The notes under the pieces: generated by a model
The model's database searches: none
The model's input: only the letters and a program-made list of their open reading frames with translations
Told to the model about the DNA's origin: nothing
Shown: piece after piece, positions 47,853 to 58,555 of the stretch
Position numbering within the stretch: the first letter of the stretch is position 1
Layout: each line of letters starts with the position of its first letter
Origin: Ignatzschineria larvae DSM 13226
GTDB lineage: Bacteria; Pseudomonadota; Gammaproteobacteria; Cardiobacteriales; Wohlfahrtiimonadaceae
Reading direction: 5' to 3'
NCBI RefSeq assembly: GCF_038500265.1
Contig: NZ_CP150637.1
Span: forward strand, 1,525,001 to 1,589,000
DNA: 64,000 bases
Translations under genes and position numbers: made by a program

Positions 47853-49415
47853 TTACCTCACAGACCAAATTTTGACTCGAACTTTTGCAGAAGAAACAAA
47901 ACCGGCCGCTTGATTGGGAGAGTAATTTTTTGTCCAACTTAAACCATTTGTACCCGTTACCACCCTCACCATATTCCCATCTAAATATGCATCTGCGCCG
48001 TAAGCGTAACCTCCATAGTTATTACTGATAACTGTCCAGCCAGCTAACATCCACTTATTTTCAGTATAGATTTCAGTAACAGTTAAGATAGGAGCTGTTC
48101 CATATGGGCTTGAAATAGTTTTTGTCTGCCCTCCTTTCATTTCACCAAAGTCTAACAATGCATACCGCATTGTTCCTGCAAGATCATCTATCCCCAAATT
48201 CTTTCTCGCATTTGCGGCAGTAGTGGCTCCAGTTCCACCCTCTGTAATCGGCTTGGTTTTTGAGTCCACACTCTTCACCAGCGCTTGACTCGCAACAAGC
48301 GACTTAGAATTTCCCAGAACATTTGTTATGTGTGCATCTTTTAAAGAACTCGCCCAAGCTGACCATTTGTTGCCGTAATTGTTACGGGTATATATTTCAT
48401 TAATACCGTTGTATGCGATATAGATCTGCGTTACGCCCGCTGAATCCAAAACAAAAAGTGTTCCTGCACGGGTAGTCGGATAATTTCGCGCTATTGTTGC
48501 ATTTGCGTTTGCTGTTTGAAAATAGACACCGACATGTACACTGTTATTTAATGTGTCTAAATTTGTTGTGCTTAGATTCCCTTTTTGTGGTAAAGCTTGT
48601 TCTGCAAGTGTGTATGCAGAATCTGCTCTTTTTTTTGCATTTGTTGCATTTGTATTCGCAGTATCTGCTGTTGATTGCGCCTTCACTGCTTTTGAATCTG
48701 CTGTTGCTGCCGCACTTTTTGCTTGATTTGCAGTAGTTTGAGCTGCATTCGCTTTATCATTCGCTGTGTTTGCACTCGTTTGAGCATTGTTTGCAGTTCG
48801 ATTCACATCATTCACAACTTTTATCGTTGCGGCTTGATCTGTTCGATCGCTCAATGAACTTGTTGAGTTTAATGTTGCTGATGTGCCAAGACCGAGATTA
48901 TTTCTAGCTACTGTTACGTTCGTGAGATCACTCAAATTCTTGGACTTTTCAAGTCGAGTATTTGCGTTATTGTTTGCTAGTTTACTGATATCGTTCACCA
49001 TTTTTGGTGTTACAGCCAAATCTTCTCTATCAGTCAAAGCACTTGTAAGTTGCACGATGCCTTGTTGCGATGTTGTAGCTTTTGTGATCAATAAAGACCA
49101 TTTTTCAGAGTTTAAATGAGGTTCATTATTCTCATTTTCAGCAAGACAGATATAGATTTTACCGTTATTTTTAACAACAGCACTTTCAGGATATCTAACA
49201 GATTTATGCCATTCAGGAATTCCTTGTTGTAGATGATAGAGATTGTTTACATCAATACGCTTAAATGCATCATTCATCCATTCAAGCGGTGGTTTACCTT
49301 GTGTTTGCTCTAACGTTACACCCCACCCCCGCAAAATATCGGGAAATTTGAGCACTTCACCCGTTTTTGCTTCGCTTGCAAATACCTGAAAATCAGGCTG
49401 TTTTACTATTTCCAT
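47853..49415 (-). CDS. Tail fibre protein
   Basis: 520 residues. The N-terminal part includes TTSQQGIVQLTSALTDREDLAVTP, a phage tail-fibre repeat, followed by VARNNLGLGTSATLNSTSSLSDRTDQAAT, a second copy of the same type. The centre is a stretch of alanine-rich heptads (TANDKANAAQTTANQAKSAA) that should form a trimeric coiled coil. The C-terminus, after NARKNLGIDDLAG, is a globular tip that should bind the host surface. It overlaps the DUF2612 gene by 23 bp. Confidence 0.88.
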   Translation of the reverse strand: MEIVKQPDFQVFASEAKTGEVLKFPDILRGWGVTLEQTQGKPPLEWMNDAFKRIDVNNLYHLQQGIPEWHKSVRYPESAVVKNNGKIYICLAENENNEPHLNSEKWSLLITKATTSQQGIVQLTSALTDREDLAVTPKMVNDISKLANNNANTRLEKSKNLSDLTNVTVARNNLGLGTSATLNSTSSLSDRTDQAATIKVVNDVNRTANNAQTSANTANDKANAAQTTANQAKSAAATADSKAVKAQSTADTANTNATNAKKRADSAYTLAEQALPQKGNLSTTNLDTLNNSVHVGVYFQTANANATIARNYPTTRAGTLFVLDSAGVTQIYIAYNGINEIYTRNNYGNKWSAWASSLKDAHITNVLGNSKSLVASQALVKSVDSKTKPITEGGTGATTAANARKNLGIDDLAGTMRYALLDFGEMKGGQTKTISSPYGTAPILTVTEIYTENKWMLAGWTVISNNYGGYAYGADAYLDGNMVRVVTGTNGLSWTKNYSPNQAAGFVSSAKVRVKIWSVR

Positions 49416-53561: not shown

Positions 53562-54407
53562 TTACTTAAGTAGCTTCTCTGATAGCTCTTTAGCCTGTTT
53601 AGTAGCTTCTGCGTAGATGTTTTTATCTAGCATTAAGTATATTTGAGATTCAGCAAGCCCATCATAGATGATTCCATCATTTCTACGAACTTCATTGATT
53701 GCCCTGCCGATTCCTTTTAGTCTCTCAGCTATCTCAAATACTTCATTTTGAAGTGACTCATATATCACATCATTATCTAAATGTTTTTTTAATGCTAATT
53801 TCATTAGACTTACTGCAAATATTTGATGCTTCTCTTTATCAGTGATTTCAGCTTTACCGCCTGCCATCTTGATTAAGAAATTAATCACATTCTTGTAATC
53901 GCTTGCTTTCAATTCTTGATAGCGTGGAACTTTGAAAGTTTGATACATTTTGGTGTAAATGTATTGGTAATGTTTTCCGGTCTTTCTACTTACTTCGTTT
54001 ACCAATGCTTTAACTTCTTGCTGTTGTTCAACATTAATTGTATTAGGGTGTTCATTAGCAACTGTCGGTAAGAAGTGTTTATAAAGTGCGTCATAGCATT
54101 CCAATTGATACAAATATAGAGTTTCTTTGATTTCCGGTTTAACTCTCTTAATATCAACACCTAATAGCCATCCGTTCAAATAACCAAGCGGTAAACAGAT
54201 AACTTCGCGCTCAAAATTAGCTTTATTCTCCGTTGTCATGATGACAACGGAACTGCTTAACACTTTGTTATTCTTGATTCTTCTGTATTGAGAAGCCCAA
54301 TCTAAGCCGATATTTTCACAGATAGAGCGCATCGCTACATAAGGCTTACCTTCGTAGTTTAAAACTTGGATTTCTTGGTTATGGAATTGTACTGTTTGAA
54401 TATTCAT
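53562..54407 (-). CDS. Phage antirepressor (P22_AR_N type)
   Basis: 281 residues. The N-terminal P22_AR_N domain is clear: VQFHNQEIQVLNYEGKPYVAMRSICENIGLDW and ICLPLGYLNGWLLGVDIKRVKPEIKE. The C-terminal half is helical, with repeated Lys/Glu. P22 Ant blocks the prophage repressor. A terminator follows, so it is its own transcription unit, and a c4-like leader lies upstream (separate entry). Its place within the late tail region is unusual; it is one of the cargo units. Confidence 0.85.
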   Translation of the reverse strand: MNIQTVQFHNQEIQVLNYEGKPYVAMRSICENIGLDWASQYRRIKNNKVLSSSVVIMTTENKANFEREVICLPLGYLNGWLLGVDIKRVKPEIKETLYLYQLECYDALYKHFLPTVANEHPNTINVEQQQEVKALVNEVSRKTGKHYQYIYTKMYQTFKVPRYQELKASDYKNVINFLIKMAGGKAEITDKEKHQIFAVSLMKLALKKHLDNDVIYESLQNEVFEIAERLKGIGRAINEVRRNDGIIYDGLAESQIYLMLDKNIYAEATKQAKELSEKLLK

Positions 54408-54640
54408 GTGCTGTTACCTCTGTTTAAATTAATAAAACCCATTAGGGTGATCAGGAGGTTAAGAAACAGCAACAAGTCTGTCGGACGTATTTCCCCGAAG
54501 GGTCTTTTATTAGTCGCCCTCCCGATCGCAAAGGTAATCGTTTGTACACATATCAAGGAAAGAGATATAAGATATGCACAAAAATACCGCTTTTAACGGG
54601 ATAGCGGTTGTCCGCTTGTTGTTAGGTTCTTACGCCTGTA
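54408..54640 (-). ncRNA. Candidate c4-type antisense leader RNA of the antirepressor
   Basis: Minus strand. CAACAAG (54621-54615) is complementary to CTTGTTG (54476-54470), and TTACCTTTG (54537-54529) is complementary, with one G-U pair, to CAGAGGTAA (54422-54414), which is the antirepressor ribosome-binding site. An AGCGG-ACAA-CCGCT hairpin (54616-54603) follows the first element and a CCC-TTCG-GGG hairpin lies between. GATCGGGAGG (54527-54518) also pairs with CCTCCTGATC (54458-54449). The two-site layout matches c4 RNA of P1/P7/P22-type phages. The boundaries are estimated. Confidence 0.55.
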
Positions 54641-54687
54641 CTAATAGAATACTCAAATTACTGCGAAGTTGCAAATTTTGGGTAATA

Positions 54688-54712
54688 AAAAAGCCCAGTT
54701 AAGGGCCTCATA
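54688..54712 (-). terminator. Terminator after the RexA/RexB-like pair
   Basis: AGGCCC / GGGCTT stem with a TTAACT loop then a T6 run on the minus strand, 12 bp after the membrane-protein stop. Confidence 0.7.
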
Positions 54713-54724
54713 ATAAATACAATG

Positions 54725-55270
54725 CTATTCATCAACACTTATATTATATGTGTCTACTAAACTAATGCATAAATCATACATACCGTATAGGCTAGAAAAA
54801 AGAATATAGAATAAAACCATGTCAGCTAAAAAATTGAATATACTCCCTACGTCTTTTGAAATAAAGATAAGCATCATCACTGTCACAGTTATATTAATGA
54901 ACAATAAGGTTGCAATAAATTTAACCTCTAGTATCACAGGATTGGGGTCGAACTCTCCATCGAATTCTTTTTTTAATTCCTTTAATCGATTAACCATTAA
55001 GATTATAGTTGGAATACATATAGCTAATAAAGTGATTAAAGCGATAAGCAAATCTTCTCTTAAAAATATAGATAAATAATTATTTTGTATCTGTAAAGAA
55101 ATAACAGCATATAAAAAACTTAATGCTATTAAGATAGAGATGGATTTTGTATGCTGTTGTCCATAACTTTTAATCTTATGCAAAAAAGCACTCTCCTTCA
55201 GAAAAGCATACATTAACTTCTTTAGCTTAAGCCGGCGCTCTTTTATTCGCATATAATCTCTTAGCCTCAC
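54725..55270 (-). CDS. Four-helix membrane protein of a cargo pair
   Basis: 181 residues. A strongly basic N-terminal 40 residues (MRLRDYMRIKERRLKLKKL) is followed by about four membrane helices: ISILIALSFLYAVISLQI, LIALITLLAICIPTIILMV, FIATLLFINITVTVMMLIF, and LADMVLFYILFSSLYGMYDL, with short acidic loops. No family is recognised. It starts 8 bp after the upstream gene's stop, so the two are surely made together. The pair (soluble protein about 290 residues, then small four-helix membrane protein) has the same sizes and order as lambda RexA/RexB, where RexB is a four-helix ion channel. A role as a membrane effector in phage exclusion is inferred only from layout. Confidence 0.6.
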   Translation of the reverse strand: MRLRDYMRIKERRLKLKKLMYAFLKESAFLHKIKSYGQQHTKSISILIALSFLYAVISLQIQNNYLSIFLREDLLIALITLLAICIPTIILMVNRLKELKKEFDGEFDPNPVILEVKFIATLLFINITVTVMMLIFISKDVGSIFNFLADMVLFYILFSSLYGMYDLCISLVDTYNISVDE

Positions 55271-55278
55271 AGTTTCGC

Positions 55279-56151
55279 TTATTTTATAATCTTTTTAAGT
55301 TTATCAAACAACTTTGTAGCAGTTTCTTTAAAAAAATCGCCTTGGGTATCCTCGTCCCTCACTGAAACAGTTACTGATCTTGGTTGCTTCTTTGTGGTAA
55401 TCACCCTTTCCCCTCTGGCTCTAATTTTAATTTCTCCACCACCTTCAGATGAGTAATCCACCATACCAGAAATATACTCATTATCTTCATTTAACGTCAA
55501 AGCAGCTCCTTTATCGGCCTCTAGCTCTACCAGTGTTTTTTTAGCATTGCATTCATCTCTAGCCAAGAGAACTTGCTTATCAAGGGTTTTTCTTATATTG
55601 CTAATATTCGGGGAAATCATCTCAAACTTAACTGAGTAAATTTTTCCTTTATGCTTTTCAACTATCTCCCAGAACCTTTTTTTATCAAAAAGCGGGTCCG
55701 CATATACAACTAACCCATAACTTTTCAAAATATCCTGAAGAGTCTCTATCATTACACCCACCACCCTATTTGATGAAGAAAATGCTTTAGTATTGGGAGA
55801 TACAGCTATTATTTGTACATTTGGCTTGTTGTTCACTACAACTGTTACATGTGGCCAATCGTCGGTAGTATTTTCCTGAAAGTTTTCATCAGTATATTTT
55901 AATGTTTTTCTTGCCCCAATCTTACAAACATAAAAATCGTCATCACTGTATATCGTTTCTGATATTATCTCTAGTTTTTTTGCAGGGTCCTTCCACTCAT
56001 TAATACTCCTCAGAGCCTCAAAAAAATACTCGTTCTTTTTTTCTCTTACATCTTCAGCCGGCTTCATATCTGAAAAAAATTGAACCATTTTCTGATCAGA
56101 AGTTAATAGTTGATATCTAAATAATTCAAATTTTATTTTTGTTACACTCAT
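55279..56151 (-). CDS. Soluble RexA-like protein of a cargo pair
   Basis: About 290 residues, not recognised as a known family. The chosen ATG (56151) has GGAG five bases upstream; a TTG three codons earlier is also in frame. The N-terminal half is mixed alpha/beta with Trp/Asp-rich blocks; the centre has VTVVVNNKPNVQIIAVSPNT then SSSNRVVGVMIETLQDIL; the C-terminal third has SSEGGGEIKIRARGERV and a basic end (KLFDKLKKIIK). The general order (strand-rich body, a VFGP-like IAVSP turn, then a helix and a basic region) is like lambda RexA, but no homology is claimed. The gene and its membrane partner are fenced by terminators, as a phage moron. Confidence 0.55.
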   Translation of the reverse strand: MSVTKIKFELFRYQLLTSDQKMVQFFSDMKPAEDVREKKNEYFFEALRSINEWKDPAKKLEIISETIYSDDDFYVCKIGARKTLKYTDENFQENTTDDWPHVTVVVNNKPNVQIIAVSPNTKAFSSSNRVVGVMIETLQDILKSYGLVVYADPLFDKKRFWEIVEKHKGKIYSVKFEMISPNISNIRKTLDKQVLLARDECNAKKTLVELEADKGAALTLNEDNEYISGMVDYSSEGGGEIKIRARGERVITTKKQPRSVTVSVRDEDTQGDFFKETATKLFDKLKKIIK

Positions 56152-56273
56152 TTTCTCCAATATCCTCTAATAATTTATACCGCATTAGATATTACAATAT
56201 ATTATTGATAATATAAAATTAATACCACACTATATTAGTACGCACCATAATCCTATCTCGGTACTTAGCTGGG

Positions 56274-56468
56274 TTAATAAGTCGTCATACCTTGTGCAAC
56301 AAAAATTGTCAGCCACTGTAATCCACTTTTATTGTCGGGAGTTACGCCCTGGATCTCATATAGATCGCCTCTAAATAAGATTCGCATCTTCGCATTGATA
56401 TAACCGTCACTAATACGCTGATCTATTGCGATTGAATTAACTTCTCTAGCTAAATATTTAAAATTCAT
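56274..56468 (-). CDS. Short head-tail joining-like protein
   Basis: 64 residues. KMRILFRGDLYEIQGVTPDNKSG and WLTIFVAQGMTTY match the C-terminal half of Phage_H_T_join head-tail adaptors, normally 100-115 residues. The N-terminal strand segment is missing, and the gene is far from the head genes, among cargo. It is therefore most likely a truncated remnant, although its ribosome-binding site (AGGTAAT) and open frame are intact. Confidence 0.6.
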   Translation of the reverse strand: MNFKYLAREVNSIAIDQRISDGYINAKMRILFRGDLYEIQGVTPDNKSGLQWLTIFVAQGMTTY

Positions 56469-56493
56469 TTATAATTACCTTTGTGTAGTTAAT

Positions 56494-56534
56494 AAAAAAC
56501 CCCTGACCAGCCCATCTGGAAAGGGGTTATTTTT
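56494..56534 (-). terminator. Strong intrinsic terminator
   Basis: AACCCCT / AGGGGTT with an inner CCAG / CTGG stem, then T6 on the minus strand. Confidence 0.8.
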
Positions 56535-56640
56535 TGCGAGTAGCTATCTCACAAAAAGCATTTGATAGCGTCTAAAGCATTGCGCTATCTGTGTTTTGAG
56601 CCTGCAAGGATTCTTTGCAAGTTGGAAATTCAGACATTAA
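56535..56640 (-). other. Structured non-coding segment between two terminators
   Basis: Between the terminators at 56641 and 56494 no open frame is evident. The minus strand has a GATAGCG / CGCTATC hairpin (56589-56564) and a partly paired GCAAAGAATCCTTGC stem. This could be a small RNA ending at the 56494 terminator; a promoter was not located with confidence. Confidence 0.4.
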
Positions 56641-56661
56641 AAAACCACCCGAAGGTGGCTA
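56641..56661 (-). terminator. Terminator of the EEP-nuclease cassette
   Basis: GCCACC-TTCG-GGTGGTT with a UUCG loop and T6, 26 bp after the stop of the 160-residue protein. Confidence 0.85.
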
Positions 56662-56686
56662 TTAAAAGATAATAGGTTGAATTAAA

Positions 56687-57166
56687 TTAATATTCGAGTA
56701 ATTTCTCTAATTCCTCTTCCTCATTACGAACTTTTTGGTAATGCTTTAATAACTCATTAAAAATCATCCCTATTTTAGGTGAACTTAACATATCGCTAAT
56801 AATTAACCTTAAAGACTGTTTATCTAAAGCTTCATTAGATTGGTTATCAAAAATAACCCTACAAGGATAACCACCGTTATCTGCCGTTTTAATCTCTGCT
56901 AATTCGTAGCTTTTTTGTTTAGAGTCTTGTTTTAAAACAATTGCGATTAGCGCAGTATATTGTTTCAAAAAATTTTCATCGCGCTTTTGGGTACCCCAGA
57001 TATTAACCCTAGTATTTTCTTTTATCTCAATACTAATAATTCCTTCCGTTGCATTTAAGATTTCTCTGTCAAGCTCTTTAAAAACTTCTTCAATTTCTCT
57101 CTTTTGCTTTTCTACCTTATTCGCATTTTCAATACCTTTTTGAAAAGATTCTGTAAATAACGACAT
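56687..57166 (-). CDS. Unknown partner of the EEP-family protein
   Basis: About 159 residues from the ATG at 57166, which has AGGGAG six bases upstream; a TTG six codons earlier is less likely. The N-terminus is a charged helix (KVEKQKREIEEVFKELDREI), the middle is a strand-rich segment with IEIKENTRVNIWGTQKR and ELAEIKTADNGGYPCRVIF, and the C-terminus is an acidic helix rich in Glu. No family is recognised. Its start lies one base after the stop of the nuclease-like gene, so translation is coupled; it is either an inhibitor/partner or a second effector. Confidence 0.55.
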   Translation of the reverse strand: MSLFTESFQKGIENANKVEKQKREIEEVFKELDREILNATEGIISIEIKENTRVNIWGTQKRDENFLKQYTALIAIVLKQDSKQKSYELAEIKTADNGGYPCRVIFDNQSNEALDKQSLRLIISDMLSSPKIGMIFNELLKHYQKVRNEEEELEKLLEY

Positions 57167-57167
57167 A

Positions 57168-58067
57168 TTAATCTCCCTTTTCAATCACGCCCATGATCGG
57201 CAGATGATCCAATTTTGATTTATTACTAGTTACTAATTCTAATATATCCGAATCAGCCAAAACTCTATTTTTTATATTCTTTATTTTCCAGCTATCGGCC
57301 ACAACAAATGAATGAGAATACATGATTTGATCAAATGTCCTCCACTTTGTAGTATCGCCGGCACGATGGAAATAAGTTCCTATATGTTCAGAGTTATCGC
57401 TTTCTGACATCTCTCCCCAAAATGGGTTAAAAAATAACTCTTCTCTTGTTAAAACTATATTTCTATCTCTAGTTGCCATGATCTTTTTAGATAAGCTAAC
57501 ATCAAATGGCTCGTCATTATAATCCCCCATTAAAATGATATTGGGGTGATTGCCGACATCTTGATAACCATCTTCAATATCACAAATATATTCTCTAAGC
57601 CTATCTGCAAGATACTCCCTTTTTTCTGATGCTTCAGACTGAAGTCTAGATGGCCAGTGTGATAAAAATAAATGAAATATACACCCTGTGACTTTAAAAA
57701 CAAAATCTAATCTAAATCCGATTTTGTAGGTTTTCTTGTTACGAGTAGTTGATAAATATTGTTCGTTGGCAATGTGTATACTGTCTCTTTTATAGATAAT
57801 ACAAAAATCAAACTGAGTTCTTCCTACTTCTCTACATGCTGATAATATTTCGTAACCAAATAAATTACACCTTTTCTTTATTTCAGAAATATCACCCTCG
57901 GATACCTCACATAGAGCGATAATATCTACAATTTGGTTATTAATTAGCCGATTAATGACTTGAAAAACAAGCTCCCTACCCTCTTCTTCTAGATTGGTTT
58001 GATCTCTATACGACATGCTTGTATTCCACCAAGCTAATGAAATGCTTGATTGCAAATTATTCTTCAT
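57168..58067 (-). CDS. Endonuclease/exonuclease/phosphatase family protein
   Basis: 299 residues of the EEP (DNase I-like) fold. Visible motifs in order: ISLAWWNTSM (Asn, strand 1), DIIALCEVSEGD (metal-binding Glu), LFLSHWPSRL (catalytic His region), IILMGDYNDEPFD (Asp-x-Asn), and SKLDHLPIMGVI (final Asp-His). So all catalytic residues are present. It could cut DNA or RNA or remove a phosphate; the substrate cannot be told. It is paired with an unknown acidic protein and lies in a cargo cassette, suggestive of defence. Confidence 0.82.
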   Translation of the reverse strand: MKNNLQSSISLAWWNTSMSYRDQTNLEEEGRELVFQVINRLINNQIVDIIALCEVSEGDISEIKKRCNLFGYEILSACREVGRTQFDFCIIYKRDSIHIANEQYLSTTRNKKTYKIGFRLDFVFKVTGCIFHLFLSHWPSRLQSEASEKREYLADRLREYICDIEDGYQDVGNHPNIILMGDYNDEPFDVSLSKKIMATRDRNIVLTREELFFNPFWGEMSESDNSEHIGTYFHRAGDTTKWRTFDQIMYSHSFVVADSWKIKNIKNRVLADSDILELVTSNKSKLDHLPIMGVIEKGD

Positions 58068-58100
58068 GCTCAGGTAGTCTTATAATAGATTTTTTTTGCA

Positions 58101-58301
58101 CTAAGGATAATCCTCTCCACCATTTGGATACTTGCATCGACAAATACGTTTAACGGCGAGCGTCGCCCCCTTTACGGTTCCATATTTTTCAATAGCTAAT
58201 ATGGCATATTCTGAACAGCTTGGTGTAAATCTACATACATTAACTCTCTTCTTGTGTTTACGGTAAAAATATATCAAGCTGATTAATATTCTCTTAATCA
58301 T
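58101..58301 (-). CDS. YidD-family protein encoded by the prophage
   Basis: 66 residues. The YidD signature is clear: CRFTPSCSEYAILAIEKYG and LAVKRICRCKYPNGGEDYP. YidD helps YidC insert membrane proteins and is normally encoded between rnpA and yidC in the chromosome. Here it is in phage cargo, overlapping a DUF4177 gene by 4 bp (ATGA). Conserved cysteines are in place. The cell should already have a chromosomal copy outside this window. Confidence 0.88.
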   Translation of the reverse strand: MIKRILISLIYFYRKHKKRVNVCRFTPSCSEYAILAIEKYGTVKGATLAVKRICRCKYPNGGEDYP

Positions 58302-58555
58302 TCAATTTCTTTCCGAAATGAGGCAACATAGCTAGATCGTTGTTTTTTTAGATCCTCACTTTTCCCACCAAAACACCCCGGCTTAGCTATTATTTCTTCT
58401 GTAAAGGTATCTACTCGATCAAACTCCCATCCTTCAACGGCGTGTTCATTGACAACCCTTTCAAGATACTGAGCCAATTCATTCCCTTTACGATCTTTTT
58501 CATTAATAGATAACATTGGGGCAATTTGAACCATTTTGTATGTGTATTTAGCCAT
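58298..58555 (-). CDS. DUF4177-like small protein
   Basis: 85 residues. TYKMVQIAP, LERVVNEHAVEGWEFDRVDTF and the SYVASFRKE end show the small beta-alpha-beta DUF4177 pattern. Function unknown. It is translationally coupled to the YidD gene. Confidence 0.7.
   Translation of the reverse strand: MAKYTYKMVQIAPMLSINEKDRKGNELAQYLERVVNEHAVEGWEFDRVDTFTEEIIAKPGCFGGKSEDLKKQRSSYVASFRKEIE

Follow-up and report, generated by a model that had tools for sequence, protein, structure and literature searches.

A P22_AR_N antirepressor gene (ant) lies at 53562..54407 on the minus strand of the window, the 64,000-nt stretch of Ignatzschineria larvae DSM 13226 analyzed here, and the question that it raises is what kind of leader precedes it. 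The gene product matched PF10547 (E=3.3e-34) and phrog_524, anti-repressor Ant (E=8.6e-49), and ant is an independent module flanked by tail genes. A gene block at 54725-58555, likely cargo, separates ant from the tail genes and includes an endonuclease/exonuclease/phosphatase-like protein at 57168-58067. A small protein at 58101-58301 of the same block bears what we take to be a resemblance to YidD. The preliminary description presented the region upstream of ant as a c4-like antisense leader. The sequence elements on which it was based are present on the minus strand, on which all leader features described below are located. CAACAAG (54621-54615) is complementary to CTTGTTG (54476-54470), and TTACCTTTG (54537-54529) to CAGAGGTAA (54422-54414), which holds the antirepressor SD; hairpins with ACAA and TTCG loops occur at 54615-54604 and 54502-54493. 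The analysis supported a c4-like antisense leader before an antirepressor, with the order and geometry of P1 and a comparable terminator-bearing upstream module, whereas the roles of the elements had been swapped and the RNA had been placed wrongly.

The family identity of the RNA was determined with Rfam covariance models. The segment 54527-54441 matched sRNA-Xcc1 (RF02221) over its full length (1-87) with 61.9 bits, the gathering score being 53. The C4 model (RF01695), which had been proposed as the check for a "divergent c4 RNA", gave no match at E<=10 in 54380-54740 and none in the genome. Likewise, c4-a1b1 (RF03163) gave no match at E<=10 upstream in the window leader, and isrK (RF01394) none in the window leader. 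By membership, as judged with these models, the window RNA is an sRNA-Xcc1 and not a C4 RNA, and RF02221 is placed outside the Rfam C4 clan (CL00128). The conserved RNA thus covers 54527-54441, the segment earlier taken as the target, and not 54640-54510. Of 398 Pseudomonadota genomes sampled, 58 carried RF02221, as did 4 of 18 genomes of Wohlfahrtiimonadaceae, the window genome included. A contig scan for relatives with a single ant protein as query returned nothing; with an alignment as query, loci were found. The window feature had no match in a plasmid DNA search, and its sole match in a phage DNA search was 42 nt in Vibrio phage VaK.

sRNA-Xcc1 was first described as a discrete 88-nt RNA in Xanthomonas campestris (PMC2996969) and also occurs upstream of symE in integron cassettes (PMC12444791). 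According to the literature, copies exist in Xylella, Aeromonas, Haemophilus and O157 E. coli. It is discussed as a virulence RNA (PMC12189769), and the published view comprises control by HrpG/HrpX and predicted targets (PMC2996969, PMC12189769). Our literature search found no paper that names both sRNA-Xcc1 and an antirepressor, and no antisense link between sRNA-Xcc1 and the adjacent gene. A reading of CCTAACAA as an integron attC site was set aside, as it had no visible partner and its conservation is accounted for by the structure of the RNA.

An independent alignment of 32 Xcc1 RNAs gave a fold in which an outer stem encloses two hairpins, and 17 of the 20 pairs of this three-way junction had changes on both sides. 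In the window, alignment A3 places hairpin 1, with its UUCG loop (CCC-TTCG-GGG, 54502-54493) and a conserved internal loop, at 54484..54515. Hairpin 2 (54466..54481; alignment A3 and pair counts) carries the hypervariable loop, termed b', and CTTGTTG lies within this loop region. The linker from hairpin 2 to the 3' outer strand (54459..54465; alignment A3) is a' and has the position of a' in P1 c4. For the free Xcc1 RNA, however, a fold more stable than the three-way junction was predicted (-26.2 vs -21.9 kcal/mol), a point against the antisense model preferred below. The internal loop of hairpin 1 (AUAnAAnAC ... GnAA; window 54515-54484) is nearly invariant in Xcc1 and was not seen in C4 RNAs; it may serve in protein binding or in a tertiary contact.

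Upstream of the RNA, sequence reading revealed a promoter-like site, TTGCAA-17-TATTCT (54646..54674), from which a transcript would be expected to start near 54640. This site is weak, because a consensus promoter scan of the window leader gave no promoter at its cut-off. The nearest relative, L192, whose antirepressor is 49% identical to that of the window, has TTGACA-16-TATTCT at the equivalent place. The putative promoter is followed by the candidate targets a1, TAAGAA (54627..54632), with a' TTCTTA as its partner, and b1, CAACAAG (54615..54621), with b' CTTGTTG (54476-54470) as its partner. In L192, a1 is changed to TAGAAA together with a' to TTTCTA (two compensated pairs), and b1 to CACCAAA together with b' to CTTGGTG (one compensated pair), so that in total three pairs of the a and b elements are compensated and one is lost. 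These changes confirm the CAACAAG/CTTGTTG pairing and assign it to b1:b'. CAACAAG, formerly regarded as an antisense element, is the target or decoy, and CTTGTTG is located in the b' loop of the RNA.

Within the window alone, the two 7-bp matches of the hairpin-2 region lie within chance when compared to dinucleotide shuffles (p about 0.30 for the upstream and 0.25 for the downstream one). The flank of the RNA and the SD form a pair of 9 bp, the strongest single pair of the locus, at a marginal p of about 0.015. The case therefore rests on the relatives. The downstream match in the window is one candidate b2, AACAGCA (54409..54415), between the SD and the ATG; it is complementary to TGCTGTT (54471-54465), with p=0.25 in this locus alone, and AAACAGC is equivalently placed in the relatives L034 and L035. 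An a2 in the window is doubtful, and the upstream and downstream sites of this locus have no word of 6 or more nt in common. Pairing of b' with the SD region is weak in the window.

For the family-wide tests, we defined L as the hairpin-2 loop with the linker after it, U as the upstream site and D as the site near the RBS of the next gene. From 75 RF02221 loci, 55 non-redundant ones were used for z tests, and a larger set with 94 non-redundant loci was used for shared words. The hairpin-2 loop is hypervariable among Xcc1 RNAs and yet complementary to both U and D. Compared to dinucleotide shuffles, complementarity to the own partner reached z=12.8 for L-U and z=9.8 for L-D, the latter bearing on a2/b2 sites over the RBS; compared to swapped partners, it reached z=11.1 (U) and 9.5 (D). 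Hairpin 1, used as a control, gave no signal (z about -0.7), and true C4 loci, used as a positive control, gave z=9 to 14 for L-D and z=5 to 7 for L-U. In 57 of the 94 loci, U and D had in common an exact word, 6 nt or longer, to which L is complementary (permuted mean 3.9, maximum 10), and in 36 this word had at least 7 nt (permuted mean 0.47, maximum 3); this shared-word signal was also seen in true C4 loci. Xcc1 copies within one genome usually differ in their loops, and co-resident copies fit U of their own locus better than U of the other copies (p about 8e-12); the preference for D is weaker (p 0.0015). The matches of the window gain their significance from these tests and from the compensatory changes of L192. 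Since the loop matches U as well as the region around the RBS of the gene that follows, Xcc1 most likely keeps that gene silent.

The upstream module recurs among relatives as well. A GCGG-ACAA-CCGC hairpin (54604..54615) adjoins b1 in the window and is possibly an antiterminator; GCGG N2-9 CCGC is common in the upstream regions of relatives (35 of 94, with 0.85 expected). It is followed by a terminator-like hairpin, ACCGCT...AGCGGT with ATTTTTG (54579..54608), detected by scan. Among the 94 loci, 59 have a hairpin and T-run between U and Xcc1, compared to 14.8 in shuffles. This search for a stem with a T-run was clear, and hairpin energy alone gave a weak signal (-5.9 against -5.1 kcal/mol). 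The terminator stems vary with compensating changes, and their loop is often CCCG(U/A)CAG (in the window AUCCCGUUAAA, 54602-54592); this loop might pair with the GUCGGG arm of Xcc1.

The preliminary description took TTACCTTTG as a second c4-type element. This arm (54529..54537) is located directly 5' of the Xcc1 RNA, and in the predicted fold of the leader it forms a 9-bp helix with CAGAGGTAA (54414..54422), which includes the SD GAGG, 9 nt before the ATG at 54407. The predicted helix hides the SD and stacks on the 10-bp outer stem. In 46 antirepressor loci, the 16 nt directly 5' of the Xcc1 RNA matched the downstream region (z=4.8 and 5.6), whereas nt 17-32 upstream of the RNA gave no pairing signal with D (z=-0.3). 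True C4 loci had no such flank signal (z about -0.9), and TTACCTTTG would be an added cis lock that they lack. The signal arises from a subclass with matching changes. Pairs of this subclass, to which others belong as well, are TTACCTTTG:CAGAGGTAA in the window, TGGTTTCCTA:TAGGAAACCA in L011, ATAACTAAGCTC:GAGTTTAGTTAT in L033 and L111, TTACTTCTTTTTG:TGAAAAGGAGTAA in L034, GAAGTTTTCTAT:GTAGGAAACTTC in L139 and CGTAATCCT:AGGATTACG in L108. Most relatives are without the lock and yet keep the b' complementarities. From these sequence comparisons, the second pair most probably serves, while the transcript is unprocessed, to lock the SD separately in cis. The L011 locus also has a weak match to c4-2 (RF02944) at 2890-2958 on the minus strand (34.8 bits vs the cut-off of 41), away from its Xcc1 RNA.

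Linkage to the next gene was examined in other loci, where antirepressors and SymE toxins were frequent. Pfam assigned 25 chosen next genes to P22_AR_N, Bro-N, Rha, KilA-N, AntA and SymE, the remainder being unassigned. Nearly all of 164 fetched loci had P22_AR_N antirepressors, and the same slot was occupied by Xcc1 in 91 and by C4 in 17. In E. coli O157:H7 EDL933, the leader of a phage antirepressor has CAAATAAG upstream, CTTATTTG in the Xcc1 RNA and CAAATAAGGAGG over the SD. The EDL933 sRNA-Xcc1 was abundant and hardly ribosome-bound in RNA-seq and ribosome profiling (PMC5331693); the copy analyzed here was equated with the published one by its relative spacing to hok/sok across two genome versions, not by a shared coordinate. 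Tandem Xcc1 RNAs, ~200 to 260 nt apart and followed by one antirepressor, were seen in L113, L195 and L196, and five clustered copies are reported for Xylella (PMC12189769). CRISPR repeats (RF01317) lie 3' of the antirepressor at 2949-3216 of L113, a Gilliamella prophage region. In L006, L015 and L017, Xcc1 is followed after ~110-120 nt by a Bro-N-type gene, with an SD and an ATG of another frame in between, an arrangement that resembles icd of P1.

The closest parallel to these loci is the c4 antisense RNA of P1 and P7. The P1 record annotates a1 at 48255-48261, b1 at 48269-48276, the c4 RNA at 48343-48419, a2 at 48423-48429, b2 at 48452-48459 and icd at 48470. The order a1 b1, RNA with b' and a', then a2 and b2/SD is that of the Xcc1 loci, and b' in the hairpin-2 loop and a' in the following linker correspond to the variable loop and linker of RF02221. 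The P1 segment after b1, GTGCGGACAACCGC...GCGGTATTTTTGTG, is almost identical to that of the window, AAGCGGACAACCGC...GCGGTATTTTTGTG. The window RNA shares with C4 two hairpins enclosed by an outer stem, the placement of b' in the second of these hairpins and of a' in the linker, upstream a1/b1 (TAAGAA, CAACAAG) complementary to a'/b', the position before an antirepressor gene (here the PF10547 gene directly downstream) and a terminator-bearing upstream module; the statistical signature of the two families is the same. In contrast, C4 (RF01695, RF03163, CL00128) and RF02221 have no mutual covariance-model match, their hairpins 1 differ, the tested C4 loci are without the SD lock that a subclass of Xcc1 antirepressor leaders has, and Xcc1 is also linked to SymE toxins. 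The sRNA-Xcc1 of Xanthomonas integron cassettes belongs to the same family as the window RNA by covariance model, but is considered a virulence sRNA controlled by HrpG/HrpX. IsrK/STnc1160 of Gifsy-1 (RF01394) is similar in its terminated short upstream RNA, read-through transcript with hidden RBS and downstream antirepressor-like gene; however, it is a different RNA, and the short IsrK activates translation of the read-through mRNA (PMC4825925). The P4 CI RNA with seqA/seqC, as described in PMC4825925, is released by processing and has one complementary site upstream and another downstream, but it controls the termination of replication genes, which it promotes. P22, named earlier as a user of c4, silences ant with sar RNA (review PMC12197685); as described there, sar is likewise an antisense RNA against ant, but another RNA.

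We consider it very probable, from sequence comparison, that the window leader exerts antisense control in the manner of P1 c4, with an RNA of the sRNA-Xcc1 type as its building block. Transcription from near 54640 would yield a1 and b1 and then reach the terminator-like hairpin; read-through would produce the Xcc1 RNA and then ant. The b' and a' elements of the Xcc1 three-way junction would be complementary to a1/b1 and to the ant RBS region. Bound at the RBS, Xcc1 would block ant translation; bound at a1/b1, it would promote termination, as P4 CI does, or be titrated by the short terminated RNA, as with IsrK. In the subclass that includes the window, the short arm 5' of the RNA would additionally pair with the SD in cis. 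The conserved structure, locus-specific complementarities and gene linkage in this model come from comparing the sequences of loci; transcription, processing, direction of control and a role in lysogeny are what we infer from them. The leader may be the lysogeny switch of the window prophage, as first suggested.

The leader could also act purely in cis, with the flank arm hiding the SD, the Xcc1 fold as a structural spacer and no separate antisense RNA. The predicted flank:SD helix, its standing as the strongest pair of the window locus (p=0.015) and its conservation with sequence changes in the subclass agree with this, but most relatives keep the b' complementarities without the lock, the b' loop, hypervariable as it is, matches two distant sites, and in Xanthomonas sRNA-Xcc1 exists as a discrete RNA with a length of about 88 nt (PMC2996969); we regard a cis-only leader as unlikely. 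We give still less credence to the view that sRNA-Xcc1 serves chiefly in host virulence, acting in trans on many targets in the chromosome or in plants, and is placed before ant incidentally. The reported HrpG/HrpX control and target predictions (PMC2996969, PMC12189769) would fit such an RNA; those targets were computational, however, and in many genera and gene contexts the match of the loop to the RBS region of the adjacent gene greatly exceeds chance. An ordinary leader with chance complementarities, which the p-values of 0.25 to 0.30 obtained for both L pairs within the window locus would allow, is hardly credible, being already contradicted by the RF02221 match, the family-wide statistics and the compensatory changes.

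A further question, compatible with the antisense leader that we prefer, concerns its ancestry, namely whether Xcc1 is a true diverged homologue of C4 by common descent and not a mere analogue. The two are alike in topology, in the places of a' and b', in their upstream module and in their genomic slot, and of 14 weak Xcc1-model hits in C4 loci, 3 fell on the C4 RNA on the right strand, where about 0.2 were expected. On the other hand, neither Rfam model matches the RNA of the other family at E<=10, nothing in the cross-searches was significant (best cross hit E=0.5), hairpin 1 differs and its internal loop is conserved in Xcc1 only. Common descent is thus a serious possibility, toward which we do not quite lean.

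The main interest of these observations appears to lie beyond the window, as an RNA family known for virulence looks, by its sequences, like a C4-type switch for the adjacent gene in many species. It is rather likely that sRNA-Xcc1, as an entire family, forms a second antisense system of the C4 type, which is widespread, has a specificity loop that can be exchanged, and serves prophage antirepressors and the SymE toxins of integron cassettes and other islands. One subclass would have two independent locks on the same SD, b' in trans and the 5' arm in cis, with the terminated upstream RNA as a decoy or attenuator. The loops of co-resident copies usually differ and best match the upstream sites of their own loci, which may insulate prophages of one genome from each other. 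This would give a concrete function to a widely annotated RNA so far discussed as a virulence or cross-kingdom RNA, and the target of an Xcc1 RNA would be predictable from sequence alone: the next gene.
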